Source of the DNA: Pseudooceanicola marinus
Lineage (GTDB): Bacteria > Pseudomonadota > Alphaproteobacteria > Rhodobacterales > Rhodobacteraceae
Direction: 5' to 3'
Assembly (NCBI RefSeq): GCF_002786295.1
Contig: NZ_PGTC01000009.1
Coordinates: 496,001 to 560,000, forward strand
Length of the DNA: 64,000 nucleotides
In this document: positions 20,861 through 58,688 of the stretch, in pieces
Position numbering within the stretch: position 1 is the stretch's first letter
Layout: the number at the start of each line of letters is the position of its first letter
Translations under genes and position numbers: made by a program
The notes under the pieces: model-generated
The model's database searches: none
What the model saw: only the letters and a program-made list of their open reading frames with translations
Told to the model about the DNA's origin: nothing

Positions 20861-20935
20861 TGGTAGCCCGTAGGGGAATCGAACCCCTCTTTCCAGGTTG
20901 AAAACCTGGCGTCCTAACCGATAGACGAACGGGCC
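20861..20935 (-). tRNA. tRNA-Glu (UUC), copy 3 of the array
   Basis: 75 bases including an encoded CCA. Seven-pair acceptor stem, D stem GTCT/GGAC, anticodon stem CCAGG/CCTGG with loop TTTTCAA (anticodon TTC) and T arm AGGGG-TTCGATT-CCCCT. Last transcribed of three identical copies; a TTTTTCTC stretch follows its 3' end. Confidence 0.96.
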
Positions 20936-21039
20936 ACGGGACGGTTCAGGGCGCGGGACGCTACGAACCTATGTCGCACAAGTCGCTGCTGTGCCACCTT
21001 ATTCCGACGTGACCTCTTTCTGCGAAGAGGGGCGGAGGG

Positions 21040-21114
21040 TGGTAGCCCGTAGGGGAATCGAACCCCTCTTTCCAGGTTGAAAACCTGGCGTCCTAACCGA
21101 TAGACGAACGGGCC
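21040..21114 (-). tRNA. tRNA-Glu (UUC), copy 2 of the array
   Basis: Identical to the flanking copies over all 75 bases, with anticodon TTC and encoded CCA. It lies one 179-base repeat period from each neighbour. Confidence 0.96.
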
Positions 21115-21218
21115 ACGGGACGGTTCAGGGCGCGGGACGCTACGAACCTATGTCGCACAAGTCGCTGCTGTGCCACCTTATTCCGACGTGACCTCTTTCT
21201 GCGAAGAGGGGCGGAGGG

Positions 21219-21293
21219 TGGTAGCCCGTAGGGGAATCGAACCCCTCTTTCCAGGTTGAAAACCTGGCGTCCTAACCGATAGACGAACGGGCC
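21219..21293 (-). tRNA. tRNA-Glu (UUC), copy 1 of the array
   Basis: Identical 75-base gene with anticodon TTC and encoded CCA. It is the first transcribed copy; a good promoter lies 20-47 bases upstream of it. Confidence 0.96.
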
Positions 21294-44358: not shown

Positions 44359-46101
44359 TTAGCCCGCGGTGGCGCTGCGCAGGGCTTCGGTCGCGGCCAT
44401 GTCGGCGCTGTGGCCCGTCAGGACCACCCCGAACATCTCGCGCGCCTGCACCGCGGTGTAGCGGCCCAGTCGCACGTCTTCGGCCACCGCTTCTGCGGGC
44501 CGGGTCATCGGGTCGCCGTAACCGCCGCCACCGGGGGTGCGCACGTGCACCACGTCGCCCGGGGCCAGGGGGATGTCCTGCTCCTTCGACAGATGCGAGG
44601 GGATATGGACCTCGCCGTCGCGGATCACCCGCACCTTGTTCACCGCCCCGTCGACGCCGCCAAGCGCGCCCTGCGGCCCGGTGCGGCCATGGTCCATGAC
44701 GAAGCTGGCGGTGGCCAGCCCCCGCCGCAGCTCCACCGCGTAGTCGAGGCCGAAGCCGCCCCGGTGGAAACCCGCGCCGCCGGACCCCTCGTGCAGGGCA
44801 TAGTGGTGGTAGAGGACGGGGAACTGCGCCTCCATGATCTCCACCGGGGGCGCCTTGGAAATGCCGATGGTGGAACAGCCGTTCGACAGCCCGTCGTGGT
44901 CGGCATTGCCGCCGTAGCCGCCGCCGGAGATCTGGTACATGACGAAGTCGCGCCCCTTCTCGGGGTCGTGCCCACCCAGGGCAAAGTTGCCCGAAGACCC
45001 GGCGGGCGAGGCCGTCACGCGATCGGGCAGCGCAGGGGCGAGGGCGGCAAAGACCGCCTCGGCGATGCGTTGGCTGACCTCTGCCGCGCAGCCCGAGACC
45101 GGGCGCGGGTAATGGGCGTCGAGGAAGGTGCCCTCGTAGCCCGTGACGTGCAGCGGCTCGAAGGCTCCGGCGGAGATCGGCACCTCGGGGAAGATATGGC
45201 GCATGGCCAGGTAGACCGAGCTGAGGGTCGTCGCCAGGACCGAGTTCATCGGTCCCGTACAGGGCGCCGAGGAGCCGGTGAAGTCGAAGCTCAGTCGGTC
45301 GCCCTCGCGGGTCACCGCCAGGCGGATCTCCAGCGGTTCGTCCACCACGCCGTCGCTGTCGATCCAGGCGGAGGCGCTGTGGGTGCCCTCGGGGATCTCC
45401 TCGACATAGCGGGTCATCTGGGCGCTGGCGCGGGCACGCAGCTCGGTGATGGCCTGGGCCACCACGTCGTCGCCGTAGCGGTCCAGAAGCTCGTTCAGGC
45501 GTTCCTCGCCCACCTTCAACGCGGCGGCCTGGGCCTGAACGTCGCCGATGCGCTGGTCGGCCACGCGGATGTTGGAACAGATGATCTGGTAGATCTCGCG
45601 GTCCAGCACCCCTTCCTTGAACAGGCGCACCGGCGGCAGGCGCAGGCCTTCCTGTTCCACCGAGGTCGCCGAGGCCGAGAAGCCGCCGGGCACGGCGCCC
45701 CCGGTGTCGGGCCAGTGGCCGGTGTTGGAAAGCCAGCAGAAGATCTTGCCGTTGCGGTAGTAGGGCCGGGCAAAGCGCACGTCCATCAGGTGGGTGCCGC
45801 CCAGGTAGGGGTCGTTGACGATGTAGATATCGTCGGGTTTCGGGTCCGCCACCAACCCTGCGGCGATGCCCTCGATCAGGACGCGGGTGGAATATTGCAT
45901 CGTGCCGACGAAGACCGGCAGCCCCATGTTCCCCTGGGCGATCAACGAGCCGTCCTCGGCCGAGTAGATCCCGTCGGAGCGGTCGTTCGCCTCGGCGATC
46001 ACCGGTGAAAAGGCGGCACGGGAGAAGGACAGGTCCATCTCGTCGCAGACCTGTTGCAGGCCCGCCTGGATGACGGAGAGGGTGATCGGGTCGATGGTCA
46101 T
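44359..46101 (-). CDS. hyuB: Hydantoinase B / oxoprolinase family protein
   Basis: A 580-residue subunit of an ATP-dependent hydantoinase/5-oxoprolinase-type enzyme, which opens cyclic amides. It carries the family blocks FSRAAFSPVIAEANDRSDGIYS, GNMGLPVFVGTM, NDPYLGGTHLMD and the C-terminal GGGYGDPMTRPAEAVAEDVRLGRYT. GAGGTGA lies ahead of the start. It follows hyuA after a 148-base gap holding a large palindrome. Confidence 0.9.
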   Translation of the reverse strand: MTIDPITLSVIQAGLQQVCDEMDLSFSRAAFSPVIAEANDRSDGIYSAEDGSLIAQGNMGLPVFVGTMQYSTRVLIEGIAAGLVADPKPDDIYIVNDPYLGGTHLMDVRFARPYYRNGKIFCWLSNTGHWPDTGGAVPGGFSASATSVEQEGLRLPPVRLFKEGVLDREIYQIICSNIRVADQRIGDVQAQAAALKVGEERLNELLDRYGDDVVAQAITELRARASAQMTRYVEEIPEGTHSASAWIDSDGVVDEPLEIRLAVTREGDRLSFDFTGSSAPCTGPMNSVLATTLSSVYLAMRHIFPEVPISAGAFEPLHVTGYEGTFLDAHYPRPVSGCAAEVSQRIAEAVFAALAPALPDRVTASPAGSSGNFALGGHDPEKGRDFVMYQISGGGYGGNADHDGLSNGCSTIGISKAPPVEIMEAQFPVLYHHYALHEGSGGAGFHRGGFGLDYAVELRRGLATASFVMDHGRTGPQGALGGVDGAVNKVRVIRDGEVHIPSHLSKEQDIPLAPGDVVHVRTPGGGGYGDPMTRPAEAVAEDVRLGRYTAVQAREMFGVVLTGHSADMAATEALRSATAG

Positions 46102-46183
46102 CGGGTCACCTCGGATGCGATGGAAGGAACGGAATTGTCAGCGCGGTATGCCGAGGCCTGTGCCCGGTCGCGGGTGGGCGGAT

Positions 46184-46217
46184 GTCCTGCATAGGACAGC
46201 CCTGCGCAGGGCTGTCC
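46184..46217. other. Overlapping hairpins between hyuA and hyuB
   Basis: GGACAGCCCTGC (46194-46205) and its exact complement (46206-46217) form a 24-base perfect palindrome. A second hairpin, GTCCT-GCAT-AGGAC (46184-46197), shares the GGAC and so excludes the first. No T-run follows. A hairpin switch or processing site is possible. Confidence 0.6.
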
Positions 46218-46249
46218 CGGGCGCCGGAGGGGGCGGGACGCGCAATGGG

Positions 46250-48301
46250 TCATTTGGCGCCCCGGATCTCGATCAGGATGTTGCCGATAGCATCTGTCGT
46301 CACGCGGTCGCCCGGGGGCACGAGGATGGTCGTGTCCATCTGTTCCAGGATCGCCGGGCCGTCGAAGGCGGCATCGGCGGGCAGCAGGTCGCGGCGGTAG
46401 AGGGGCGTTTCATGCGTCTCGCCGTCGAAGATCACCGGACGGGTGGCGCGCAGGGCCTCGGCCAGCGTGGCCTTGCGGTGTTCGGCCGGGATCAGCCGGG
46501 CCGGGTCCAGCGAATTGCGCGTGCCGATGACCGAGGTGTTGGCATTGACCACCGCCGCGCGGATCGTGTCGAGCCGCACGTGGAAGCGTTTCCAGTAGAC
46601 CTCCTCGAAGGCGGCCTGCAGAGCCTCGCGGCTGATAACCGGACCCTCCAGTTCCACCCGCAGAAGATGGGTCTGGCCGATGAACTGCATGTCCAGCGAA
46701 TGCAGCACCCGGGTTTCGGTAATCTCGACCTTTTCGCGGGCGATCAGGGCGCGCCCCTCCGCCGCCTGGGCGGTCAGCGTGTCGGCGAGGGCGTCCATGT
46801 CCAGCGTGTCCAGTGGCTGGGCCACGGTATTGGTGAAGTCATGACGCAGGTCGGCGACCAGGCAGCCAAGCGCGTTGGTGATGCCGGGGCGTGCGGGGGT
46901 CAGCACGCGGGGGACCCCCAACTCGCGCGCCAGCGAGGCGGCGTGCAGCGGACCGGCGCCGCCGAAGGCAAAGAGGGCGAAGTCACGCGGATCGGCGCCG
47001 AGAGAGACGGAAACCATGCGGATGGCGCCCGCCATCTTCACGTTCGCCAGCTGGATCACGGCCTCGGCGGCCTGTTCGGGCGTCAGGCCCAGCGGGTCGC
47101 CCAGCTTTTTTGCAAAGATGTCGCGGACGGTTTGCAAAGTTACCCCGCCCTCGACCGACTTCAGCCGCGCAGGGTCGAGCCGTCCGAGCAGCAGGTTGGC
47201 ATCCGAGATCGTGGGTTCCGTGCCGCCGCGACCATAGCAGATCGGGCCGGGGGTGGCGCCGGCCGATTCCGGCCCGACCTCCAAGAGGCCCGCCGCATTG
47301 ACCCGCGCGATGGAGCCACCGCCGGCGCCCACGGTGCGCACGTCGACCATCGGCACGTGGATCGGCATGGCATATTCCACCTCGATCTCGTTCGAGACAG
47401 CGGGTTGCGCATTGCGGATCAGCGCCACGTCGGTGGATGTGCCGCCCATGTCGTAGGTCAGCAGGTCGGGGATGCCGGCGGCGCGCCCGGTGAACGCCGC
47501 GGCCATGACGCCGGAGGCCGGGCCAGACATGACGGTGCGCGCGGCCTCTTCCGCCACACGGCGGGCCGACACCATGCCGCCGTTGCCGTTCATGACCAGC
47601 AGTTCCCCGGCGTAACCGCCGCTTTCCAGCGAGCCGGCCAGGTTCTGCACGTAGCGGTCGAGGATCGGCTGCACCGAAGCATTGACCGCCGCGGTCACGC
47701 CGCGCTCGTATTCGCGACTTTCCGACAGCAGGGCATGGCCGAGGGTGACATAGGGATTGGGCCAGATCTCCTTGAGGATCTCGCCCGCGCGCAGCTCATG
47801 CGCCGGATTTCGGTAGGCATGCAGGAAATGGACGACGACGGCGGTGCAGCCCAGATCCAGCAGGGCCTGGGCGGCGGCGCGCAGGGCGTTTTCGTCCAGG
47901 GGGGTCACGACGCGGCCTTCGGCATCCATCCGTTCGGGCACCTCCAGGCGCAGGTCGCGGGGGATCAGCGGCTTGAAATCACCTTTCATCCCGTAGGCCT
48001 GCGGGCGGGTGCGGCGGCCCAGCTCCAGCACGTCGCGGAAGCCCTGGGTCGTGATGATGCCGGTGCGGGCCAGCTTGCGTTCCAGCACGGCATTGGTCGT
48101 TGTGGTGGTGCCATGGACGATCAGCGCGGTGCCAGGCAGGGAGGCCTCGGCCTCTGCGACCGCGTTCATCACGCCGCGCGACTGGTCATCCAGCGTCGAG
48201 GGCACCTTGGCGATGCGCACCTCGCCCGTGGCCGGGTCCATCAGCACCAGATCGGTGAAGGTGCCGCCCACGTCACAGCCGATGACCTGTCCGCTTTCCA
48301 T
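46250..48301 (-). CDS. hyuA: Hydantoinase A / oxoprolinase family protein
   Basis: A 683-residue ATP-binding subunit of a hydantoinase/oxoprolinase-type cyclic amidase. The acetate-kinase-like phosphate motif VIGCDVGGTFTDLVLMD starts the protein; LTYDMGGTSTDVALI and VGAGGGSIARVNAAG are the further nucleotide and family motifs. Start 48301 agrees with the family; ATG 48352 upstream lies inside the operator-like repeat. The substrate could be hydantoin, N-methylhydantoin, 5-oxoproline or another lactam. Confidence 0.92.
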   Translation of the reverse strand: MESGQVIGCDVGGTFTDLVLMDPATGEVRIAKVPSTLDDQSRGVMNAVAEAEASLPGTALIVHGTTTTTNAVLERKLARTGIITTQGFRDVLELGRRTRPQAYGMKGDFKPLIPRDLRLEVPERMDAEGRVVTPLDENALRAAAQALLDLGCTAVVVHFLHAYRNPAHELRAGEILKEIWPNPYVTLGHALLSESREYERGVTAAVNASVQPILDRYVQNLAGSLESGGYAGELLVMNGNGGMVSARRVAEEAARTVMSGPASGVMAAAFTGRAAGIPDLLTYDMGGTSTDVALIRNAQPAVSNEIEVEYAMPIHVPMVDVRTVGAGGGSIARVNAAGLLEVGPESAGATPGPICYGRGGTEPTISDANLLLGRLDPARLKSVEGGVTLQTVRDIFAKKLGDPLGLTPEQAAEAVIQLANVKMAGAIRMVSVSLGADPRDFALFAFGGAGPLHAASLARELGVPRVLTPARPGITNALGCLVADLRHDFTNTVAQPLDTLDMDALADTLTAQAAEGRALIAREKVEITETRVLHSLDMQFIGQTHLLRVELEGPVISREALQAAFEEVYWKRFHVRLDTIRAAVVNANTSVIGTRNSLDPARLIPAEHRKATLAEALRATRPVIFDGETHETPLYRRDLLPADAAFDGPAILEQMDTTILVPPGDRVTTDAIGNILIEIRGAK

Positions 48302-48349
48302 GTCCTGTCTCCATCGTTGGCCCGCGCCGTCGGATCGGGCCGGTAGATA

Positions 48350-48365
48350 CATTTGTGTGCAAATG
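48350..48365. promoter_or_regulatory. Operator-like inverted repeat (site A) at the hyuA promoter
   Basis: CATTTG-TGTG-CAAATG has perfect 6-base arms. On the minus strand a TTGACA (48392-48387) stands 17 bases before AATTCA (48369-48364), so the repeat overlaps the -10 box and start of hyuA transcription, as a repressor site would. Related to sites at 49961 and 55642. Confidence 0.6.
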
Positions 48366-48450
48366 AATTTCCGATGCGCCGCACGATGTCAATTCCTCTT
48401 TGCATCTGCGGCGGGGGAAGTTCTGACTTGCATGAGGAGGTGCCCGGAGC

Positions 48451-49857
48451 ATGATCACGACACGGACAACCTGCGGGTCGGGGGAGCCATTGCAAAGACA
48501 GCTCGGACAGATCGCGGCGCTGGCGGCGGCGCTGCTGGTGCCGGGGCAGGCGCTGGCACATGCCTCGGAAGGGGGCTTCGTGCTGCTCTTGCCGACGGAT
48601 GCCTATATCGCGGGCGGCGTGGCCTCGGTGCTGGCCACCGTCGTGCTGATCGCGCTGATCCCTGAGGGGGCCGCGCGGCGGCTGTTCCGGACGCGGGACC
48701 TTGGCCGGGCCGGACCGCCGCGCGGGGTCGCGGTGACCACGGCGCTGTCGGCGCTACTGCTGCTCTGGGCGATCAGCCAGGGGTTCGCGGGGTCGCAGGA
48801 TCCGGTGAAGAACCCCCTCCCGTTGCTGGTCTGGACGGGCCTCTGGCTGTTCCTCGTGGCGGGCTGCGGGGTCTTCGGCGACCTCTGGCGCTGGCTCAGC
48901 CCGTTTCGCGCGACCCTCGGCGTGATGCGCCTTTTCGGGCTGCGTCCCTTGCTGCGCTATCCCGCCCGTTGGGGGTATTGGCCGGCAGGCCTGAGCTATC
49001 TGGCCTTTGCCGGCGTGCTGATGGTCCATATCGCGCCCACCGATCCCGACCGGCTGGCCTGGATGGTGCTGGCCTACTGGGGTGTCACGGCCCTTGGCTC
49101 TGCGCTGTTCGGGGCGCGCTGGCTGCTGCGCGGCGAGGGGCTGGGCGTGCTGATGCATCTTTATGCACAGCTGGCTCCGCTGCGGCGGCGGGGCGGGCGC
49201 TGGCGCCTGGGCCTGCCCGGATGGGACCTGGATCAGAGTCGCGCGCCGTCGGTCAGCCTGGCGATCTTCATGCTGATGTCGCTGGCGCTTGGCTCCTTCG
49301 ACGGTCTGAACGAGACCTTCCGCTGGTTCGGCTGGATCGGGATGAACCCGCTCGAATTCACTGGGCGCAGCGCCGTGGTCGGACCCAACCTGACCGGGCT
49401 GATCCTGTGCGGTCCGCTGTTGGTCCTGCTCTACGCCGCCTCGGTCAAGGCGGGGCTGATCCTGGTGGAGGCCGGCGGTTTCGGCGCCAGTTTCCGCGTG
49501 CTGGCCCCGGCGATTCTGCCGATCGCCTTCGGCTACCACGCGGCACACTACCTGCCTGCGGCCCTGGTGGAGGGGCAGTACCTTTGGAACATGGTCGCGC
49601 ATCATCTGGGCCTGCGCGAGATCACTGTCAGCACGGGATTTTTCAATCGTCAGGCCTCCGTCCGGGTGATCTGGCTTAGCCAGGCGGCGGCGGTGGTGCT
49701 GGGCCATGTCCTGGCGATCGTGATGAGCCACGTGGCCGCCCTGCGTCTGCACGGCAGCCATGGCCGCGCGGCGCTGAGCCAGGCGCCATTGGCGCTGTTC
49801 ATGATATTCTATACGCTGTTCGGGCTATGGCTTCTGGCCTCGCCCCGGGGGGCGTGA
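48451..49857 (+). CDS. Polytopic membrane protein of unknown function
   Basis: A 468-residue protein with an N-terminal signal-like stretch (ALAAALLVPGQALAHASEGGFVLLLPTDAYIAGG) and ten or more hydrophobic segments. It resembles membrane proteins sometimes annotated as fenitrothion hydrolase; that is recalled, not checked, and no catalytic motif is evident. The conserved-looking FGYHAAHYLP with two His could bind metal. It is divergent from hyuA and upstream of the ABC receptor gene, with site A between it and hyuA, so it may belong to the same pathway. Confidence 0.7.
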   Translation: MITTRTTCGSGEPLQRQLGQIAALAAALLVPGQALAHASEGGFVLLLPTDAYIAGGVASVLATVVLIALIPEGAARRLFRTRDLGRAGPPRGVAVTTALSALLLLWAISQGFAGSQDPVKNPLPLLVWTGLWLFLVAGCGVFGDLWRWLSPFRATLGVMRLFGLRPLLRYPARWGYWPAGLSYLAFAGVLMVHIAPTDPDRLAWMVLAYWGVTALGSALFGARWLLRGEGLGVLMHLYAQLAPLRRRGGRWRLGLPGWDLDQSRAPSVSLAIFMLMSLALGSFDGLNETFRWFGWIGMNPLEFTGRSAVVGPNLTGLILCGPLLVLLYAASVKAGLILVEAGGFGASFRVLAPAILPIAFGYHAAHYLPAALVEGQYLWNMVAHHLGLREITVSTGFFNRQASVRVIWLSQAAAVVLGHVLAIVMSHVAALRLHGSHGRAALSQAPLALFMIFYTLFGLWLLASPRGA

Positions 49858-49960
49858 GGATGCGGCGGGCCGGATCACGCCGCGCTGCCCTTTCCTTGGG
49901 CATTGCGCCGAAACTGGCGCGACAGCGGCCGAGGGAAAAGACTCAAAAGGCTGGACAGAT

Positions 49961-49976
49961 CGTTTGTGTGCCTACA
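49961..49976. promoter_or_regulatory. Operator-like sequence (site B) upstream of the ABC receptor
   Basis: CGTTTGTGTGCCTACA shares the nine bases TTTGTGTGC with site A, without a good right arm. It lies 63 bases before the receptor start and just after TGGACA (49952-49957), a possible -35 box. Confidence 0.45.
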
Positions 49977-50038
49977 GACTTTCTCCCAGGGTCAGCCGAA
50001 TAAGATCCGGTAAGAACGTTGCCAACAGGGAAAATGAG

Positions 50039-51349
50039 ATGACCGAGACAACCAGCAAGACCAAGACCAGCGGGCTGATCCAGCCCACGCGCCGCGGGGC
50101 GCTGAAAACGCTGGCCATGGGCGCGGGCGCGGCTGCCACCATGCCGCTCTGGGCCCGCTACACCAGCGCGCAGAGCGCCGAGCCGATCCGCATCGGCTTT
50201 GGCAAGCACGCCACCGGCATCGGCGCCGCCTATGGCCGCTGGTACGAACGCACCTCCGTCGCCGCGATCGAGAAGATCAACGGCGAAGGCGGGATCAACG
50301 GTCGTCCCGTGGAACTGGTGACCGAGGATGACGGCACCGATCCCCGCCGCGCCGCCGAGGTGCTGGAGAAGTTTGCCAACCAGTCCAACTGCGACGTGGC
50401 CTTCGGCACGCTCTTCTCCCACGTGGTCGTGGGCGCCGCGCCCCGCGCGGGCGAGCTGAAGCTGCCCTATTTCGTCTGCTCCGAAGGGCACCACGTGGCC
50501 TCGGGCATGCTGAACCGGTGGACCATGCAGCCGGGCATCACCGACGTGAAGAGCCAGATTTCGGCCATGGCGCCCTTCATCACCGACGTGCTGGGCAAGA
50601 AGGTCACGATGATCTACCCCGACTATGCCTTCGGCTACGATCACCGCGACAACCTGGCCCCGGCCATCGAGGCCGCAGGTGGCGAAATCGTCGGCTCCAT
50701 CGCGATCCCGCCGACCGAGACCTCCTTCACCAAGTACTTCCCGCAGATCCCGCGCGATACCGAGGTCATCTATCACGTGATGATCGGTCCCGCCGTGCTG
50801 ACCTTCGTCAAGGAAATGGGCGAATTCTTCGGCCCCTCCCGCCCCGAGATCTTCGGCTTCATCGACAGCCTGGAGGCCACCGACCTGACCTCGCCTGGCC
50901 TTGAGTTCCTTGATGGGACCTACTTCTGGGAAGGCATGCCGCGGTACCTGCAGGACGATGCGCCCGATTATGTCACCGCCTACCGCGATGCCGTGGGGCT
51001 GGATGCCAACGGGGCCTCGGTCAGCGATCCCTCGGACGTTTCGACCTCGGCGCATATGTTCTCCTGCTGGGAGACGCTGCATGTCATCAAGGCGGGCATG
51101 GAGGCCGCGGGCTATCAGTCCACCGAGGACCGCCAGGCCCTAATCGAGGCGGTCGAGGCGATGACGCTGATGGAGGCCGGTCCGGCCCACCCGGGCGGCA
51201 CCAAGATGTTCAACGGCAAGACCCACCAGGTCTTCGGCCCGCAGTACATCTCGAAGGTCGAGGGCGGCAAGCTGGTGGTGCAGAAGACCGTCGACTACGA
51301 AGAGACGATGTATCCCGACGAGGTCGACTACACCTCGATGAGCTTCTGA
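50039..51349 (+). CDS. ABC transporter substrate-binding protein, amide/branched-chain type
   Basis: A 436-residue periplasmic receptor of the type I fold used by LivJ, UrtA and AmiC relatives. The N terminus has a twin-arginine-type signal (TRRGALKTLAMGAGAAATMPLW, R18-R19), suggesting Tat export. The body has IRIGFGKHATGIGAAYG, GGINGRPVELVTEDDGTDPRRAAEV and the later YPDYAFGYDH. It opens an operon with two permease and two ATPase genes. The 248-base gap that follows holds hairpins. The substrate is unknown; amides, urea-like compounds or heterocycles are plausible. Confidence 0.88.
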   Translation: MTETTSKTKTSGLIQPTRRGALKTLAMGAGAAATMPLWARYTSAQSAEPIRIGFGKHATGIGAAYGRWYERTSVAAIEKINGEGGINGRPVELVTEDDGTDPRRAAEVLEKFANQSNCDVAFGTLFSHVVVGAAPRAGELKLPYFVCSEGHHVASGMLNRWTMQPGITDVKSQISAMAPFITDVLGKKVTMIYPDYAFGYDHRDNLAPAIEAAGGEIVGSIAIPPTETSFTKYFPQIPRDTEVIYHVMIGPAVLTFVKEMGEFFGPSRPEIFGFIDSLEATDLTSPGLEFLDGTYFWEGMPRYLQDDAPDYVTAYRDAVGLDANGASVSDPSDVSTSAHMFSCWETLHVIKAGMEAAGYQSTEDRQALIEAVEAMTLMEAGPAHPGGTKMFNGKTHQVFGPQYISKVEGGKLVVQKTVDYEETMYPDEVDYTSMSF

Positions 51350-51362
51350 CGTCAGACTGCCA

Positions 51363-51504
51363 GCGCCCGGGGGACAGCCGTCATCCGGGCGCAGACCTTT
51401 CAACATGAGTATTTTTGGCTATCGGATTGGGGCAGGGCGCGCGCACCGTGTCGCCCGTCCGCTGCGGGCCTTCGCGCGGGCGGAATGTCTGTTCATCCGA
51501 TAGC
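51363..51504. other. Hairpin region between receptor and permease genes
   Basis: GCGCCCGG-N14-CCGGGCGC (51363-51392) follows the receptor stop by 13 bases. Beyond it, GCTATCGGAT (51418-51427) and ATCCGATAGC (51495-51504) form a perfect 10-base inverted repeat 67 bases apart. Together they would let the receptor be made in excess of the permease. The rest of 51350-51597 shows no gene. Confidence 0.6.
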
Positions 51505-51597
51505 TGGAAATGCTGCGGGCATGCAGGGCCTGGCCCCCGCGTTGCCCGACAGGCCGCGCCGTTCGCTGGTTCGGCACCGGAAATCAAGAGAGAGAAG

Positions 51598-52533
51598 ATG
51601 GAATTCGGACCCTATCTGATGCTGGCCATGCTGGAGGGCGCCGTTCTGGCCGCCGTTCTGGCATTGATGGCCAGCGGTTTGAGCCTCGTCTTCGGGGTGA
51701 TGCGCGTGGTGAACGTCGCCCATGGCGAGTTCTACATGCTGGGCGCGGTGATGGCCTGGGTGGTGACCCAGTTCATGATGGGCCTCGGCGGCGGCCCGGC
51801 CGTCAACTTCATCGCCGCCGCTGTCCTGGCGCCGCTGATCGTGGGATCCATCGCGGCCGCGGCCGACGTGGTGATCCTGAAACGGCTGAACTATGACCCC
51901 GAACGGGTGATCGTGGCGACCATCGGACTTCTCTACATCATCCAGCAGGCCGCCCTCATGGGCTATGGCCCGGATGCGAAGCCGGTGGTGGCCCCCTTCA
52001 ATGAACGCATCGCGCTGCCCTGGGTCGCCTGGGGCGAAAACGGGCTGGAGATGTATTATCCCTGGGGCCTGTCCACGACCTCCTACAAGCTGTTCGTCAT
52101 CGTTGCCGCCGTGGTGATCCTGGCGGGGCTGCGTCTGTTCATGACGCGCTCTCGTGCCGGGTTGGTCATGCGCGCCACGCAGCTGGACGGCGAAATGGCC
52201 ACGGCCTTCGGCATTCCGGTCGAACGAGTCTACGCCATCGTCTTCGGCGCCGGTGCCGCCCTGGCGGCGCTGGCCGGTGTGCTGATCGTGCCGATCCAGC
52301 AGGCGCATTACCTGATGGGCGGTGACGCGTTGCTGCTGTCGTTCATCGTCGTCATCATCGGCGGGCTGGGCAGCCTGGCGGGCACTGTCGTGGCCGCGGT
52401 GCTGATCGGCATGTCCGACGGCATCATCTCCGTCTTCTTCACGCCGACGCTGGCCAAGATCATCGCGACGCTGGCCGTGGCGCTGGTGCTGGTCTTCCGT
52501 CCGCAGGGCCTTTTCGGGGTGAAGAACCGATGA
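51598..52533 (+). CDS. ABC transporter permease, LivH type
   Basis: A 311-residue inner-membrane permease with about eight hydrophobic segments. The LivH/UrtB pattern GLSLVFGVMRVVNVAHGEFYMLGA is near residue 25 and RATQLDGEMATAFGIPVERVY is the coupling loop. AGAGAGAAG precedes the start. It overlaps the LivM-type gene by four bases. Confidence 0.92.
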   Translation: MEFGPYLMLAMLEGAVLAAVLALMASGLSLVFGVMRVVNVAHGEFYMLGAVMAWVVTQFMMGLGGGPAVNFIAAAVLAPLIVGSIAAAADVVILKRLNYDPERVIVATIGLLYIIQQAALMGYGPDAKPVVAPFNERIALPWVAWGENGLEMYYPWGLSTTSYKLFVIVAAVVILAGLRLFMTRSRAGLVMRATQLDGEMATAFGIPVERVYAIVFGAGAALAALAGVLIVPIQQAHYLMGGDALLLSFIVVIIGGLGSLAGTVVAAVLIGMSDGIISVFFTPTLAKIIATLAVALVLVFRPQGLFGVKNR

Positions 52534-53468
52534 CCAGACGTGACCTGACATTGCACCTTGGCCTGATCGCGGGCCTCTTCGCGCTGCATTTCCTCCTGCC
52601 GGCCTATCACCATGGGGTCTTCGCCCGGGTGATGGTGCTGGCGGTCTATGCCATCGGCTACAACATCGCCTTCGGCTATACCGGCCTGCTGTCGCTGGGC
52701 CATGCCATGTTCTTCGGCGCGGGCATGTATGGCGTCGGGCTGGCCAGCTATCACTTCGCCATTCCGGCGCTGCCGGCCTGGATCATCGGGCTGGGCTGTG
52801 GCGCCCTGCTGGCGCTGGTGGTGGGCCTGCTGGCGCTGCGGACCGAGGGCGTCAGCTTCATGATCGTGACGCTGATGTTCGCCCAGGCGGCCTATCTCGT
52901 GATCCTCTACTACAGCGAATACACCCGCGGCGACGACGGGCTGGTGATCCCCGGCGACATGCGCGCGATCGGATCCTGGGACCTCAGCGACGAGGGCACG
53001 CGCTACCTGCTGGCCTGGGCGCTGTTCTCCATCGCGCTGATGCTGTCGCTGTGGCTGGTGCGCCATCCCTTCGGCCGCGTCCTGGTGGCCCTGCGCGAGA
53101 ACGAGGAACGCGCCCGCCTTCTGGGCTATGACACCGGCGGCCGCAAGCTGGCTGCGCTGGTGATCTCCGGCACGATCTCGGCTGCGGCGGGCGGCGCCTA
53201 TGCGACCATGTTCGGCTATGTCGGCGCCAGCTTTGCCGGCGTGCAGTATTCGATCTTCGCGCTGCTCTGGGTCCTGCTGGGCGGGGCGGGCACCGTGCTG
53301 GGGCCCTTCGTGGGCGTGCTCTTCATGACCTACCTCAATGATGTGGCCTCCGGCGTGACCGAAGCCTACATGCTGATCGCGGGCGTTGTGCTGGTCCTGC
53401 TGACCCTCTTCGCGCCCCAGGGCATCGTGGGCGAGATCCGCCGCCGCTTCTGGAAGGATCTGCCATGA
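52530..53468 (+). CDS. ABC transporter permease, LivM type
   Basis: A 312-residue permease, second of the pair. It has YNIAFGYTGLLSLGHAMFFGAGMY near residue 45 and the loop VALRENEERARLLGYDTGGRKL. It overlaps both the LivH-type gene before it and the LivG-type gene after it by four bases, so the transporter genes are co-translated. Confidence 0.93.
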   Translation: MTRRDLTLHLGLIAGLFALHFLLPAYHHGVFARVMVLAVYAIGYNIAFGYTGLLSLGHAMFFGAGMYGVGLASYHFAIPALPAWIIGLGCGALLALVVGLLALRTEGVSFMIVTLMFAQAAYLVILYYSEYTRGDDGLVIPGDMRAIGSWDLSDEGTRYLLAWALFSIALMLSLWLVRHPFGRVLVALRENEERARLLGYDTGGRKLAALVISGTISAAAGGAYATMFGYVGASFAGVQYSIFALLWVLLGGAGTVLGPFVGVLFMTYLNDVASGVTEAYMLIAGVVLVLLTLFAPQGIVGEIRRRFWKDLP

Positions 53469-54198
53469 AACACGAAACCGACGTGATCCTGTCGACCGAG
53501 GGGCTGGGCAAGTCCTTTGACGGGCTGCGGGCCAATCACGACATCGACTTCACCCTGCGCAAGACCCAGGTGCATGCGCTGATCGGGCCGAACGGGGCGG
53601 GCAAGACCACCTTCGTTTCGATGCTGATCGGTCGGTTGGAACCCACCGACGGCGCGATCTGGTTCGACGGCCGCAACGTGACGCAGATGCCGGCGCATAA
53701 ACGCGTCGCGGCGGGCATGGGCTATACCTTCCAGATCACCTCCGTCTTCGCGCGGCTCAGTTGCCACGAAAACGTGGCCCTGGCGGCCCGGCGCAAGCAG
53801 GGCGGCGATGCTGCGAAGGTGGAGCAGGTGGTCGCCGACGCCCTGTCCCGCGTGGGTCTGGCAGATCGCACCGCTGACGTGGCGGGGGATCTGTCCTACG
53901 GCCACCAGCGCCTGCTGGAGATCGCCATGGGCCTGGCCTCCGCGCCGCGCTTGCTGATCCTGGACGAGCCGACCCAGGGGCTGGCGGAAAGCGAGATCAC
54001 CGCCTTCAAGGCGCTGATCCGCGAGCTGTCGGCGGAGACCACCATCCTGCTGATCGAGCACAACATGTCCGTGGTCATGGAACTGGCTGACGAGATCACC
54101 GTGCTGAACTTCGGCGAGGTCCTGGCCCGCGGCACCGCAGCGGAGATCCACGCCAACCCGGCGGTGCAGGCCGCCTACCTGGGAACGGAGGCGAGCTG

Positions 54199-54199
<1 letters not shown>
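53465..54199 (+). CDS. ABC transporter ATP-binding protein, LivG type
   Basis: A 244-residue ATPase. Walker A GPNGAGKTT, Q-loop YTFQITSVFARLSC, signature LSYGHQRLLEIAMGL and Walker B LLILDEPTQGL are visible; the C-terminal AEIHANPAVQAAYLG extension is typical of LivG. The signature motif is LSYGHQR instead of LSGGQQ, which is common in this group. Confidence 0.94.
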
Positions 54200-54906
<707 letters not shown>

Positions 54907-54928
54907 CCGCCGCGAAGGGAACGAGACG

Positions 54929-54953
54929 GGGGCCCCCACGCGGGCCCCTTTTT
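54929..54953 (+). terminator. Terminator of the liv-type ABC operon
   Basis: GGGGCCC-CCACGC-GGGCCCC followed by TTTTT, 22 bases after the LivF-type stop codon. Confidence 0.93.
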
Positions 54954-54978
54954 CGTTTCAGGGGCCCTGAATCAGATC

Positions 54979-55040
54979 CGCCCGGAGCTTTCGCTCCGGG
55001 CGGGCTCCGTCACTCCCCGTTACCTGAGTGGAAAACGGGG
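54979..55040. other. Two further hairpins before the convergent MarR gene
   Basis: CGCCCGGAGC-TTTC-GCTCCGGGCG (54979-55002) has a perfect 10-base stem, and CCCCGTT-N12-AACGGGG (55015-55040) follows. The first may terminate the convergent MarR transcript, although its T-run is poor on both strands. Confidence 0.6.
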
Positions 55041-55114
55041 CGACACACCTCTTTGCCGCGGGTCTTCGTGAGTGGTGGCACGGGATCGGCGCATGGGGGC
55101 AGGGCCCTGGCGGA

Positions 55115-55552
55115 TCAGCCCATCTTGGCAAGCAGGGAGAGGAGGGTTTCGCGTTCCTTGTCGCTGAGCGGCGCAAGGGTTTCGGTGCTGATCTTCAGCG
55201 CGGCCCCCGCCAGTTCGGCATAAAGCGCGCGACCGGCCTCGGTGGGGATCAGGTAGTGGCGGCGGCGGTCCACCGGGTCGGGTTCCGCCGTCACCAGGTC
55301 ACGGGCGCGCAGCCGGTCGGCCACCCCCTTGATCGTGGCGGCATCCATCGCCGTGGCACGGCCCAGGGCGTTCTGCGACGTCGGGCCCAGCTCACAGAGT
55401 TTGGCCAGGGCCGCGAACTGTGTCGCGGTCAGGGCGGAGAGGTTCTGGGAGAAGATCGACAGGTGACGCTGGCTGGCCTTGCGCAGCAGGAAACCGACCT
55501 GTTCGTCGAGGCGGTAACGGGCCGCGTCGTCATCTGAAAAGTCGTAATGCAT
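55115..55552 (-). CDS. MarR-family transcriptional regulator
   Basis: A 145-residue regulator. After RLDEQVGFLLRKASQRH the winged helix reads LTATQFAALAKLCELGPTSQNALGRATAMDAATIKGVADRLRARDLV and the beta wing is DPVDRRRHYLIPTEAGRAL. Start 55552 is preferred because ATGs at 55612 and 55618 lie in the promoter region of the divergent operon. It is divergent from the reductase-like operon and probably represses it through site C. Confidence 0.85.
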   Translation of the reverse strand: MHYDFSDDDAARYRLDEQVGFLLRKASQRHLSIFSQNLSALTATQFAALAKLCELGPTSQNALGRATAMDAATIKGVADRLRARDLVTAEPDPVDRRRHYLIPTEAGRALYAELAGAALKISTETLAPLSDKERETLLSLLAKMG

Positions 55553-55609
55553 GGAAAATGGTCTCTCGATCAAAGCGGGGAGGATCAGACTGTCGGGGAT
55601 CTGGAAAGG

Positions 55610-55640
55610 CATTGACACCTGCGGGTCATCTGAGTCAATA
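55610..55640. promoter_or_regulatory. Overlapping face-to-face promoters, reductase operon and MarR gene
   Basis: Plus strand: TTGACA (55612-55617), 17 bases, TCAATA (55635-55640). Minus strand: TTGACT (55638-55633), 17 bases, TCAATG (55615-55610). Each -35 box overlaps the other promoter's -10 box, so the two should exclude each other. Confidence 0.5.
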
Positions 55641-55641
55641 C

Positions 55642-55661
55642 CATTTGTATACCAACGAATG
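55642..55661. promoter_or_regulatory. Operator-like sequence (site C) at the reductase operon promoter
   Basis: CATTTGTATACCAACGAATG contains TTGTATACCAA, close to the TnGTATACnA sites of GntR-FCD or similar sites of MarR regulators, within imperfect CATTtG/CgAATG arms. It begins right after the plus-strand -10 box. Confidence 0.6.
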
Positions 55662-55754
55662 TGACGCGGCGTGAAAACCCCTGCTTCACGTTACGAGGCC
55701 CCTGTTCCTCGCGAACGCGCAGGCCTGCGAGCCACTCTTGAAAGGATGTCCGCC

Positions 55755-57248
55755 ATGGCGCCCGTGGACAAGATCAGATGCGATGCCTGCCCTGTCATGT
55801 GCTACGTGGCCGAGGGACGCACCGGCGCCTGCGACCGCTATGCCAATGAAAACGGCAAGATCGTGCGCTGCGACCCGGTGACGGTGCTGGATCGCACCCT
55901 GGCCGCGGGCCAGGAGGTGCGCCCCTTCCTGCCCGCCGAGGGCGACTGGGATGGCACGATGATCGCGGGGCGCGACCTCTTCGTCTCCGGCCTGGGTGCC
56001 GGCACCACCTATCCCGATTTCAAACCCGCCCCCTTCATCGTCAGCCGCGAGGTCGAAGGCGTCGATACCGTCACCGTGGTGACCGAGGCGATCTATTCCT
56101 ATTGCGGCGTGAAGGTGAAGATCGACACCGACCGCCACCTCGGCGACGAGGCCGCGGCCGTGCGCGCCGAGGGCGAGGTGATCGGCCATGTGACCACCGG
56201 CGAATATGGATCGCAGATGTTGTCGCTGGGCGGCGTGGACCACCTGACCGGCGGGTCGAAGGCCGAGGGCCGCGCCACCTGCAACAACCTGATGGCGCTG
56301 TGCAACGGCGAGGCGGTGGAGTTGTCGATCGACGGCGGCTCGACCGTCATCGTGCAGGCGGGGCAGGCGCCGATCGTGGACGGCCAGGCCGAAACCCGGA
56401 TGCGCGTCGGCTGCGGCTCGGCCACCATCGGCATGTTCGCGACCCAATGGCAGGGCCACGTGGACGAGGTGGTGGTGGTCGACGACCACATCACCGGCGT
56501 CGTCTCTGAACACCAGGCGGGCAAGGTCATCGGCTGGGAAGATACGGGCATCCGCATCAAGGGCCGCCGGTCCACCCCGGGGCGCTACTTCCAGGTGGCC
56601 GAACCGGGCCTGGGCTGGGGCGGCACCGATATCTCGGATCCGCTGACCATCCTCGACAAGTGGCTGGAAAAGAAGGGCGCGCGGCCCGGGCTGACCCTGC
56701 TGATGGTTTCGACCACCGGCGAACACGCGGCCTACTACGTGCTGGACGAGAACCTTGAGCCGCAGCCCGCGCCCATGCCCGAGGCGCTGGTGCGCTCCGT
56801 CGCGCTGATCGAGGAGAACTGCGAACCCGCGCTTTGCACCGTGATGTTCTGTGCCGGCGCCGGCGGGTCCCTTCGCTCTGGCGTGACGCAGAACCCGGTG
56901 CGGTTGACCCGTGCCGTGCAGGCGGGCGAGGCGAAGGTGACCCTGGGCGGGGCCGATGTCTTCCTCTGGCCCGGCGGTGGCATCACCGTGATGGCCAATG
57001 TGCTGGACATGCCGAAGAACTCCTTCGGGTATGTGCCCACACCCGCGCTGGTGGCGCCGCTGGAATTCACCATGCCGCGCGACCTCTACGTGGGTCTTGG
57101 CGGGCATGACGGGGCGATCCGCCCGATCCGCGACGTGCTGGAACGGGGGGGCGAGTACCACAACGTCTTCCGCGCCCTTGGCCGAGAGGTTGGGGCCGAC
57201 GACGAGACGGTCAAGCCCTTCCCGGGTGACAGCAAGAAGGCCGGCTGA
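55755..57248 (+). CDS. 6-hydroxynicotinate reductase-like iron-sulfur protein
   Basis: A 497-residue protein that I recognise as the family annotated 6-hydroxynicotinate reductase. The N terminus has a ferredoxin-like cluster motif, C9-x2-C12-x3-C16-x9-C26, with C39 further on (IRCDACPVMC, TGACDRYANENG). Conserved blocks include TYPDFKPAPFIVSREVEGVDTVTVVTEA, GGVDHLTGGSKAEGRATCNN and WGGTDISDP. In Eubacterium barkeri the founding enzyme reduces 6-hydroxynicotinate and carries covalent flavin plus Fe-S clusters. Start 55755 is chosen because AAAGGA is spaced 8 bases ahead; the frame is open to a GTG at 55671. It overlaps the UPF0280 gene by one base. Substrate here is unknown. Confidence 0.75.
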   Translation: MAPVDKIRCDACPVMCYVAEGRTGACDRYANENGKIVRCDPVTVLDRTLAAGQEVRPFLPAEGDWDGTMIAGRDLFVSGLGAGTTYPDFKPAPFIVSREVEGVDTVTVVTEAIYSYCGVKVKIDTDRHLGDEAAAVRAEGEVIGHVTTGEYGSQMLSLGGVDHLTGGSKAEGRATCNNLMALCNGEAVELSIDGGSTVIVQAGQAPIVDGQAETRMRVGCGSATIGMFATQWQGHVDEVVVVDDHITGVVSEHQAGKVIGWEDTGIRIKGRRSTPGRYFQVAEPGLGWGGTDISDPLTILDKWLEKKGARPGLTLLMVSTTGEHAAYYVLDENLEPQPAPMPEALVRSVALIEENCEPALCTVMFCAGAGGSLRSGVTQNPVRLTRAVQAGEAKVTLGGADVFLWPGGGITVMANVLDMPKNSFGYVPTPALVAPLEFTMPRDLYVGLGGHDGAIRPIRDVLERGGEYHNVFRALGREVGADDETVKPFPGDSKKAG

Positions 57249-58051
57249 TGCAGGCGGGGCTGTTGCCCGACGGGGTGCGGCTGCACCTGAACGCCGGGCC
57301 GATCGACCTGGTGATCTTCGCCGAAGCGGCGCTGCGGCAAGCGGCCTATGACGCCGCCTGCGCCCGATTTGACGGCCTGCTGGAAGAGCTGGTGGCGGAA
57401 CTGCCGGAGCTGCGTCGCGCAGGCGGACAGGGGCAGGGCCCGGTGGCGGCGCGGATGGTTACCGCCGTCGCACCCTTCGCCCCCGATTTCATCACCCCCA
57501 TGGCCGCCGTCGCCGGCAGCGTCGCCGAGGAGATCCTGGCGGCGATGATCGCGGTGGCTCCCGAAGCGAAGCTCTGGGTCAACAATGGTGGCGACATCGC
57601 CTGGGCCCCCGGCCGCGAAGGCATGCGGCTGGCGCTGCCCGGAGGCCGCGTGGACCTGCCGCCCGAGGCGCCCTTTCGCGGCTGCGCGACGTCGGGCCGG
57701 GGCGGGCGCAGCCATTCCCTTGGTATCGCAGACGCGGTGACGGTACTGGCGCGCGGCGCAGCCGCGGCGGATGCGGCGGCCACGATGATCGCCAACCGCG
57801 TGGATCTGCCGGACCACCCGGCGGTGACGCGACAACCCGCGGAGGAGCTGAGCCCCGACAGCGACCTGGGCGCGCGACCCGTTACGGTTGACCTGGGGCC
57901 GCTGACCTCGGAAGAGGTGGCAAGGGCGCTGGACGCGGGCCTGACCTATGCCGAGGATCTGCGCGCGCGGAACCTGATCGGCGCGGCGCATCTGGCGCTG
58001 GCGGGCGAGGTCCGGACGACGGGCGCGATGAAAGACATGCTGCGCGGCTGA
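57248..58051 (+). CDS. UPF0280 family protein (ApbE-like)
   Basis: A 267-residue protein of the UPF0280 family, related to the flavin transferase ApbE. The characteristic motif is AKLWVNNGGDIAW (NNGGD at 112-116), matching the N-x-GGD of ApbE that binds FAD and metal; FRGCATSGRGGRSHSLGIADAVTVLA is the second family block with the SxG and AD residues. It overlaps the reductase-like gene by one base. I infer that it may attach flavin to that reductase, since the characterised homologue holds covalent flavin; this is untested. Confidence 0.75.
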   Translation: MQAGLLPDGVRLHLNAGPIDLVIFAEAALRQAAYDAACARFDGLLEELVAELPELRRAGGQGQGPVAARMVTAVAPFAPDFITPMAAVAGSVAEEILAAMIAVAPEAKLWVNNGGDIAWAPGREGMRLALPGGRVDLPPEAPFRGCATSGRGGRSHSLGIADAVTVLARGAAAADAAATMIANRVDLPDHPAVTRQPAEELSPDSDLGARPVTVDLGPLTSEEVARALDAGLTYAEDLRARNLIGAAHLALAGEVRTTGAMKDMLRG

Positions 58052-58109
58052 CCGGCCGGGCGGACAGAACCGGACGCGCCGGGCGCGTCCCCGACAGATG
58101 GAGGGCCCG

Positions 58110-58688
58110 ATGGCCGAATTCACCCTGCGCAAGACGCAAGTCATCCTCGAAGAGATCCACCATGACGGCGGTCCCGTCAGCGGTCCGCGTGTCCGCGGCG
58201 CGGTGCTGGCCCTGGTGAAGAACCCCTATGCGGGCACCTACCAGGAGGATCTGACCCAGGCGATGGAAGACCTGAAACCCCTGGGCCTGGCCATGGCGCG
58301 CAAGCTGGTCGAGGCCATGGGCGGGGTCGAGGGGATCGACGCCTACGGCAAGGGCGCCATCGCCGGGGAGCAGGGCGAGCTGGAACATGCCGCGCTGTGG
58401 CACGTCGCGGGCGGCTATTCCATGCGCGAAGTGCTGGGCGAATCTCTGGCCATCGTGCCTTCGTCGAAGAAGCAGGGCGGGCCGGGCACCCGGTTGGACG
58501 TGCCCCTGGGGCACACCAATGCCGCCTACGTGCGCTCGCATTTCGACGCGATGGAAGTGGGCCTGCCCGAAGGTCCGCGCGCGGATGAGATCCTCTATGT
58601 GCTGACCATGTCCAAGGGGCCGCGCATCCATGCCCGCCTCGGCGGTCTGGCAGCGGACGAGATCAGCAAGTTCGATGGGTTGCGCTGA
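58110..58688 (+). CDS. 'Amino acid synthesis' family protein (AA_synth domain)
   Basis: A 192-residue protein assigned from memory to the AA_synth (PF06684) family, whose biochemical function is not established despite its name. Diagnostic stretches are RKTQVILEEIHHDGGP, NPYAGTYQEDLTQAMEDLKPLG, GKGAIAGEQGELEHAALWHVAGGYSMREVLG and VPLGHTNAAYVRSHFD. Start 58110 has GGAGG spaced 5 bases ahead. It closes the operon with the reductase-like and UPF0280 genes, a trio that I recall recurring in rhodobacters and rhizobia. Confidence 0.75.
   Translation: MAEFTLRKTQVILEEIHHDGGPVSGPRVRGAVLALVKNPYAGTYQEDLTQAMEDLKPLGLAMARKLVEAMGGVEGIDAYGKGAIAGEQGELEHAALWHVAGGYSMREVLGESLAIVPSSKKQGGPGTRLDVPLGHTNAAYVRSHFDAMEVGLPEGPRADEILYVLTMSKGPRIHARLGGLAADEISKFDGLR

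Follow-up and report, generated by a model that had tools for sequence, protein, structure and literature searches.

What is degraded by a gene cluster of Pseudooceanicola marinus in which the genes for a HyuAB-type cyclic amide hydrolase lie close to those for an importer and a reductase-like protein? The cluster is located in a stretch of 64,000 nucleotides (contig C9:496001-560000 of the 4.5 Mb genome), which we call the window and whose positions are used as coordinates throughout. A sequence-only reading had described hyuAB, an ATP-binding cassette (ABC) importer and a 6-hydroxynicotinate reductase-like protein (HNR) with two partners, and all of these were found as described by their open reading frames (ORFs), their Pfam/NCBIfam matches and, for HNR, the names in plasmid records. 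We consider it likely that the genes form a catabolic regulon for nicotinate that follows a reductive route, with HyuAB opening the ring. Gene families, synteny, the conservation of an operator, the complementary distribution of HyuAB and enamidase and the fold of a UPF0280 protein were obtained from the sequence.

The pathway that we infer, in every enzymatic step as well as in its electron path, MarR ligand and flavinylation, would start with the uptake of nicotinate or 6-hydroxynicotinate (6HN) by a Liv-type importer. A NicAB-like molybdenum hydroxylase, encoded outside the window, would make 6HN, which the Fe-S protein HNR, probably with a flavin attached by UPF0280, would reduce to 1,4,5,6-tetrahydro-6-oxonicotinate (THON). 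The electrons would pass from NADPH via a ferredoxin-NADP reductase and ferredoxin to HNR; this supply is proposed because an operator-like site lies at an unlinked gene and such genes occur inside other HNR clusters. With ATP, HyuAB would then cleave THON hydrolytically at its lactam C-N bond, giving 2-(aminomethylene)glutarate, an enamine from which 2-formylglutarate and ammonium should form by hydrolysis. Until 6HN binds, the set would be repressed at the operator RTTTGYRYRCAAAY by a BpsR-like MarR protein.

Distribution of HyuAB and enamidase

The hyuB gene (44359-46101, minus strand; Pfam PF02538, 515 bits; PDB 6yra_B, 268 bits) encodes a hydantoinase B/oxoprolinase subunit, the proposed subunit B of a THON lactamase. 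The ATP-binding subunit, the proposed subunit A, is encoded by hyuA (46250 to about 48301, minus strand; PF01968/PF05378; PDB 7hk5, 433 bits, and 6yra, 380 bits). Its listed ORF starts from 48352, but homology begins near residue 18, and homologues align from residue 17-20. The domains Hydantoinase_A, Hydant_A_N and Hydantoinase_B were matched far above cut-off, the HyuA and HyuB domains being on adjacent genes.

Enzymes of the HyuAB family use ATP to activate a cyclic amide, and enamidase opens its lactam with the release of ammonia. We searched 160 genomes, namely 97 Rhodobacterales with HNR, 24 further genomes with HNR and 39 without it, with an enamidase (from locus L045) and the HyuA of the window. 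The HyuA searches were run at E 1e-180 or 1e-150, which leaves weaker paralogues below view, and paralogues of 42-54% identity were not counted as HyuA. Among the 121 HNR-positive genomes, 63 had only HyuA, 56 had only enamidase, one had both and one neither. The HyuA matches in all HyuA-only genomes had an identity of at least 64%, that of G004 being partial. Of the enamidases, 52 reached at least 71% identity, and the other four (49-50%) are separated from HNR by about 5 to 17 kb. The genome of P. marinus has HyuAB instead of an enamidase, for which no match was found at E 1e-20. The 39 genomes that lack HNR yielded neither a HyuA of at least 64% identity (one at 54%) nor an enamidase of at least 71% (one at 43%). 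At the level of 156 HNR loci, HyuA was present in 48 and enamidase in 28, never both. Fisher's test gives P 2e-32 for the exclusion if the genomes were independent, which they are not.

On a tree of 118 HNR sequences, the deepest trait change separates a HyuAB side (60 rows) from an enamidase side (58 rows). This tree was made without G003, whose HNR is split, G029, where it is partial, and G035, where it has stops; another tree was made without G261. On the enamidase side, the genomes G137, G199 and G235 have no enamidase, and all three carry a HyuA of 68-73% identity, which is unlinked, being either on a different contig from HNR or some 60 kb away from it. On this side HyuA was seen in 3/3 genomes lacking the enamidase versus 0/55 that kept it (P 3e-5). 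Since the two enzymes replace each other among the HNR-positive genomes, the suggestion of the sequence-only reading that HyuAB takes the place of the enamidase in ring opening is well supported, although not proven. The one genome with neither enzyme, G035 (L025, C28), has an HNR match with five in-frame stops and looks like a decayed pathway.

Some results weigh against this reading. G263 is the sole genome with both enzymes, HyuA beside HNR and the enamidase on another contig. The HNR tree needs only 5 and 4 changes for the two traits, which are few events. By phylogeny the exchange comes down to about four switches, and in three recent ones HyuAB is located away from HNR. A test of independent pairs had three supported pairs (two in the expected direction, one without difference), too few for significance. 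Furthermore, HyuAB scored below the NCBIfam cut-offs for every named activity. The best match of HyuA and HyuB was caprolactamase CapAB (NF050156/NF050157), with scores of 490.5 and 307 bits where the cut-off is 1000. By these equivalog cut-offs HyuAB is not a caprolactamase, and the match, far below the cut-off as it is, hints at six- to seven-membered lactams.

The low scores would also suit a function of HyuAB at another step of the nicotinate regulon, on a side product or a later cyclic amide, with THON being opened by a different hydrolase that co-varies with HyuAB. We think this unlikely, because the exchange with enamidase is near-perfect and includes the three unlinked cases. In addition, no other amide hydrolase tracked HyuAB among the annotated recurrent families of the loci, some families being unannotated. 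An assignment of HyuAB to the opening of THON itself is preferred.

Gene neighbourhood of HNR

The hnr gene is located at 55755-57248 on the plus strand, with a possible upstream GTG start at 55671. No Pfam or NCBIfam family matched HNR at E 0.001. Homologues with 60-80% identity were found in 26 plasmid records; among the 25 of these listed, many of the annotated homologues are named 6-hydroxynicotinate reductase and some "hypothetical protein". The nearest named relatives by HNR, among the matches listed, were a Rhodobacteraceae metagenome-assembled genome and Pseudooceanicola sp. HF7. HNR was present in 26 of 60 genomes and in 97 of 390 Rhodobacterales genomes, P. marinus being included in both counts. 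A scan of named genomes for HNR gave at least 340 stretches, from which 80 loci were kept. HNR clusters were also observed on Sulfitobacter and Pseudosulfitobacter plasmids (L261 and plasmid matches), some of them from diatom (Skeletonema) cultures.

Neighbours were counted in the 137 of 156 loci that have 4.2 kb on either side of HNR. For these counts and those of the operator, the duplicate stretches L029, L033, L036 and L141 were set aside, as was L047, which is without HNR. Within 4 kb of HNR, UPF0280 was found in 136/137 loci, DUF1185 in 127/137 and a molybdenum hydroxylase, with fused 2Fe-2S and molybdenum cofactor (MoCo) domains and a separate FAD subunit, in 122/137. In Bosea sp. Leaf344 (L110:7151-11548), a single frame of 1465 residues matches both the hydroxylase and HNR and is possibly a fusion.

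Gene orders were taken from 100 loci, among them L047, which is not an HNR locus. HyuAB, the importer and MarR co-occur with the HNR operon in other lineages in several orders. In Fuscovulum ytuae, marR is divergent from the genes for the FAD subunit, hydroxylase, HNR, UPF0280, DUF1185, a protein of unknown family, the periplasmic binding protein (SBP), Liv, HyuA and HyuB, all on one strand. On a Pseudosulfitobacter plasmid, the order HyuB-HyuA-hydroxylase-FAD subunit faces away from ferredoxin-NADP reductase-HNR-UPF0280-DUF1185-DUF1185-Rieske-ABC. This recurrence in different arrangements supports the view that hyuAB and the HNR operon belong together with the importer and marR as a single unit.

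The MarR regulator and its operator

The sequence-only reading had noted that three promoter regions share the element TTTGTnTnC, which corresponds to half of a MarR-type palindrome, RTTTGYRYRCAAAY. A perfect palindrome, CATTTGTGTGCAAATG, lies upstream of hyuA (48350-48365), a half-site, CGTTTGTGTGC, precedes the SBP gene (49961-49971, plus strand), and ATTTGTATACCAAC, with one mismatch to RTTTGYRYRCAAAY, lies between marR and hnr (55643-55656); all three are proposed MarR sites. The shorter pattern TTTGTNTNC has exactly three copies in the window, one at each of these promoters. This count alone is not significant, since 1.88 copies are expected and three or more were reached in 28 of 100 shuffles. 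Genome-wide, CNTTTGTNTNC occurs 34 times versus 23 for the reversed control, and three of the 34 copies are at this cluster; the binomial P of 0.00018 for this clustering was obtained with a pattern derived from these very sites.

Stronger support for the element came from its conservation. Across the 4.5 Mb genome, RTTTGYRYRCAAAY has a single exact copy, the site at the hyuA promoter. In the 156 related loci (2.95 Mb), 38 exact sites were found in 33 loci. Of these sites, 37 fall within cluster-gene promoters, and such promoters account for 12.6% of the bases searched. Shuffles averaged 0.8 sites, 0.2 of them in promoters. The promoter sites are chiefly at the hydroxylase FAD subunit (20) and HyuA (12), and in related loci half-sites were also seen upstream of genes for enamidase, SBP and ferredoxin-NADP reductase. 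The central YRYR of RTTTGYRYRCAAAY was fixed only after looser matches had been seen, and some looser matches are inside genes. One-mismatch matches were at chance level in the genome (7 versus 6 for the reversed control), and four other one-mismatch places that we inspected (L203, L205, L206, L207) were taken as chance. The operator evidence was restricted to the exact site and the sites at cluster genes. A chance neighbourhood of the cluster genes was rejected in view of synteny and the operator.

A one-mismatch operator-like palindrome is located directly before an unlinked ferredoxin-NADP reductase-like gene of the same genome (contig C18, L047:9469-9482). Among 18 members of the genus, the best site near this gene had two mismatches or fewer in 10/13 genomes with HNR versus 0/5 without HNR. 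The inclusion of this gene is weakened by G012, which has HNR and no operator at the reductase gene, and by the scores of the ferredoxin-NADP reductases, which are below the NCBIfam cut-off.

The MarR-family regulator (55115-55618, minus strand; PF01047) has its best PDB match in 2nnn, another, unnamed regulator, and matches BpsR (6pcp) at E 5.7e-25. In BpsR, 6HN is contacted by Tyr15, His23, Arg26 and His32 (PMC6837509). MarR aligns to BpsR without gaps over the first helix, where the corresponding residues are Tyr35, Phe43, Arg46 and His52. With three of the four contacts kept, the substitution of His23 by Phe43 counts against 6HN as the ligand. Across 124 loci, the tyrosine was found in 123 (one was not covered), the arginine in 124, the second histidine in 116 (asparagine in 8) and the first histidine in one. 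MarR is therefore called only BpsR-like here, as it does not have all four contacts.

Exchange of the first enzyme

The window and its clade have no linked hydroxylase of the xanthine dehydrogenase (XDH) family in the cluster, and long matches to the linked enzyme in the same genome did not exceed 34% identity. Outside the window, about 73 kb upstream of hyuB, a NicAB-like gene was found at C9:463436-467338. In the encoded protein, Pfam recognises both MoCo and cytochrome c domains, and a small Fer2-like protein is encoded upstream. We take the architecture of NicAB to be a small 2Fe-2S subunit and a MoCo subunit with cytochrome c domains. Cytochrome c is mentioned for NicAB-type enzymes in PMC10331938.

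A full-length homologue of the NicAB-like protein (59% identity or more) was present in 11/11 HNR-positive genomes without a linked hydroxylase and in 0/24 with one, two of which gave partial matches of 33-40%. It was found in 1/12 genomes without HNR. HNR-positive G082 had no homologue, and its HNR locus was not seen. The 11 genomes represent two lineages, not 11 events. In two of them (L144, L169) the NicAB-like gene is inside the HNR cluster, behind HyuAB and with an operator upstream. A site with two mismatches lies upstream of the NicAB-like gene of P. marinus and is common to 5/8 homologous loci, P. marinus included. It seems from this distribution that the lineage of the window has swapped the linked hydroxylase for a NicAB-like one. 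The other molybdenum enzymes of the genome that were considered and set aside are one XdhB above cut-off, and carbon monoxide dehydrogenase (CODH)/glyceraldehyde-dehydrogenase-like and PaoC-like proteins below cut-off.

Substrate of the pathway

The sequence-only reading had left the substrate as an N-heterocycle. This can be narrowed, as the gene content of the relatives points to nicotinate or 6HN. Nicotinamidase is encoded in 23/137 HNR loci, and two of these proteins exceed the NCBIfam equivalog cut-off (PDB 2wt9). A protein of a sister locus matches the enamidase of Eubacterium barkeri (PDB 2vun) at E 2.7e-107, with the next-best PDB match at E 2.8e-5, and enamidase opens THON (PMC9304392). 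Both the reduction of 6HN and a gene cluster for it have been reported from the aerobes Azorhizobium and Bradyrhizobiaceae, the HNR of the published aerobic cluster being 42% identical to that of E. barkeri (PMC3511419).

Two further observations count against the proposed pathway. In sequence, the linked hydroxylase of the relatives resembles aldehyde oxidoreductase (359 bits) more closely than nicotinate dehydrogenase 3hrd (233 bits), and HNR has no confident fold, its weak model giving a best Foldseek E of 0.028 and a best VIA Z of 3.3. The first of these, together with the missing BpsR contact in MarR, would agree with a related pyridine compound as the substrate, for example another pyridine carboxylate or, in a marine setting, N-methylpicolinate (homarine), degraded by the same logic of hydroxylation, reduction and hydrolysis. 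A homarine pathway has been published, as cited in PMC13390433. Homarine was considered since the relatives are marine and was kept only as part of this explanation, which is improbable. The nicotinamidase in the clusters, the 2vun enamidase homologue in sister clusters, the NicAB-like substitution and the published nicotinate clusters of the same content in Bradyrhizobiaceae (PMC3511419) argue against it and favour nicotinate. That hyuAB is an ordinary 5-oxoprolinase or hydantoinase merely located beside the HNR operon, as the Pfam/PDB labels 5-oxoprolinase and N-methylhydantoinase could suggest, is very improbable in view of the linkage in several unrelated gene orders, the shared operator and the absence of this HyuA, at 64% identity or more, from all 39 genomes without HNR.

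UPF0280 and the iron-sulphur reductase

UPF0280 is encoded directly behind hnr (57248-58051, plus strand; NCBIfam NF003322 above cut-off). Its structure model, with a pLDDT of 94.9, matches DVU1097 (2o34) with Z 20.5, followed by the FMN transferases ApbE, Ftp and FmnB with Z 13.8-15.5 and the next rows at 7.6, and Foldseek agrees. The motifs NNGGD and ADxxAT are conserved. UPF0280 thus has the ApbE-like fold and these motifs in common with the FMN transferases, but it is a separate, shorter family. A covalent flavin is reportedly present in the HNR of E. barkeri. This flavin, the modelled fold and the constant presence of UPF0280 beside HNR suggest that it flavinylates HNR. For the attachment site, which in ApbE-type transfer of FMN is a protein threonine or serine, HNR has several conserved S/T-G motifs, none of them canonical, and no site was assigned. 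In 31 rows, HNR has ten conserved cysteines, four of them in an N-terminal CxxCxxxC...C motif, which fit Fe-S clusters.

Other genes of the window

The DUF1185/AA_synth protein (58098-58688, plus strand; PF06684, 212 bits; PDB 3byq, 2qtp) is encoded next to UPF0280. Proteins related to DUF1185 are part of the pathways for trigonelline (TgnF) and 7-hydroxycoumarin (HcdD) (PMC7913881). Some lineages have two consecutive DUF1185 genes (L045:11666-12867; L116, L117, L120), whereas the window has one.

The importer genes are all on the plus strand and encode the SBP (50039-51349; PF13458, 178 bits), the LivH-type permease (51598-52533; PF02653), the LivM-type permease (52530-53468; from its ORF, position and homologues in related clusters) and the ATPases of the LivG type (53465-54199; PF00005, PF12399) and the LivF type (54199-54906; from its ORF and position). 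Of these, SBP, LivH and LivG were scanned, and their best NCBIfam models are urea/Urt, each below cut-off. A protein of unknown family (48451-49857, plus strand), without a Pfam or NCBIfam match, is recurrent in HNR loci (57/137), where its homologues usually adjoin importer genes. A gene for a Rieske-type oxygenase was observed in 15/137 HNR loci (e.g. L041:12587-13771; L117, L120, L260), next to Liv genes and the gene for an alternative binding protein. Outside the cluster, three tandem tRNA-Glu (ttc) genes with a spacing of exactly 179 bases are located at 20861-21293 on the minus strand.

Comparison with known systems

Our results would give a testable substrate to a HyuAB clade that is otherwise annotated only as hydantoinase/oxoprolinase, and a proposed partner, and if true a function, to the uncharacterised family UPF0280. 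They would place the reductive degradation of vitamin B3 in about a quarter of the sampled Rhodobacterales (97/390) and on plasmids of marine bacteria, and they raise the question why ATP is consumed at this step in some lineages and a metal hydrolase is employed in others. A wider generalisation is tentative, and we hold it with a little less than even confidence: HyuAB would be the ATP-dependent THON lactamase in about half of the sampled HNR genomes, UPF0280 a dedicated flavin transferase of HNR, and the first step exchangeable between XDH-type and NicAB-type enzymes around a fixed core of reductase and maturase. In a limited paper collection, a literature search joining nicotinate degradation with hydantoinase gave no mention of hydantoinase, and one on roseobacters and nicotinate, by titles only, gave nothing on this route.

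The sequence-only reading had called the pathway a candidate new one and unexpected in an aerobe. Neither description can be kept, as the reductive route and its cluster are already described for aerobic alphaproteobacteria, Azorhizobium and Bradyrhizobiaceae (PMC3511419). The class of the pathway is known, and what is new is the displacement of the ring-opening enzyme and of the hydroxylase, together with the role proposed for UPF0280. The nicotinate clusters of Azorhizobium caulinodans, Bradyrhizobium and strain SG-6C have in common with the proposed pathway a route through THON in aerobes (PMC3511419). The window differs from them by HyuAB in place of the enamidase and, in its clade, by a distant NicAB-like gene and no linked XDH-type hydroxylase. 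Compared with the E. barkeri/Azorhizobium type, 6-hydroxynicotinate reductase is present by homology and plasmid-record naming, and the enamidase and a linked XDH-family dehydrogenase are absent. By gene content, the window is a variant of reductive nicotinate catabolism through THON that is not of the enamidase type.

The regulator is homologous to BpsR of Bordetella (PDB 6pcp) over the whole domain and shares three 6HN contacts with it, but has Phe for His23 and would control a reductive pathway. The nicotinate gene cluster of E. barkeri is reported to have been described by Alhapel in 2006, as cited in PMC3511419. Its enamidase (PDB 2vun), which has a homologue in sister HNR genomes, would share substrate and products with HyuAB, which belongs to an unrelated, two-subunit and ATP-dependent family. 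Within this family, caprolactamase CapAB and the structures 6yra and 7hk5 resemble HyuAB in subunit make-up. HyuAB differs from CapAB in its score below the cut-off and in its proposed substrate, an unsaturated lactam derived from a pyridone.

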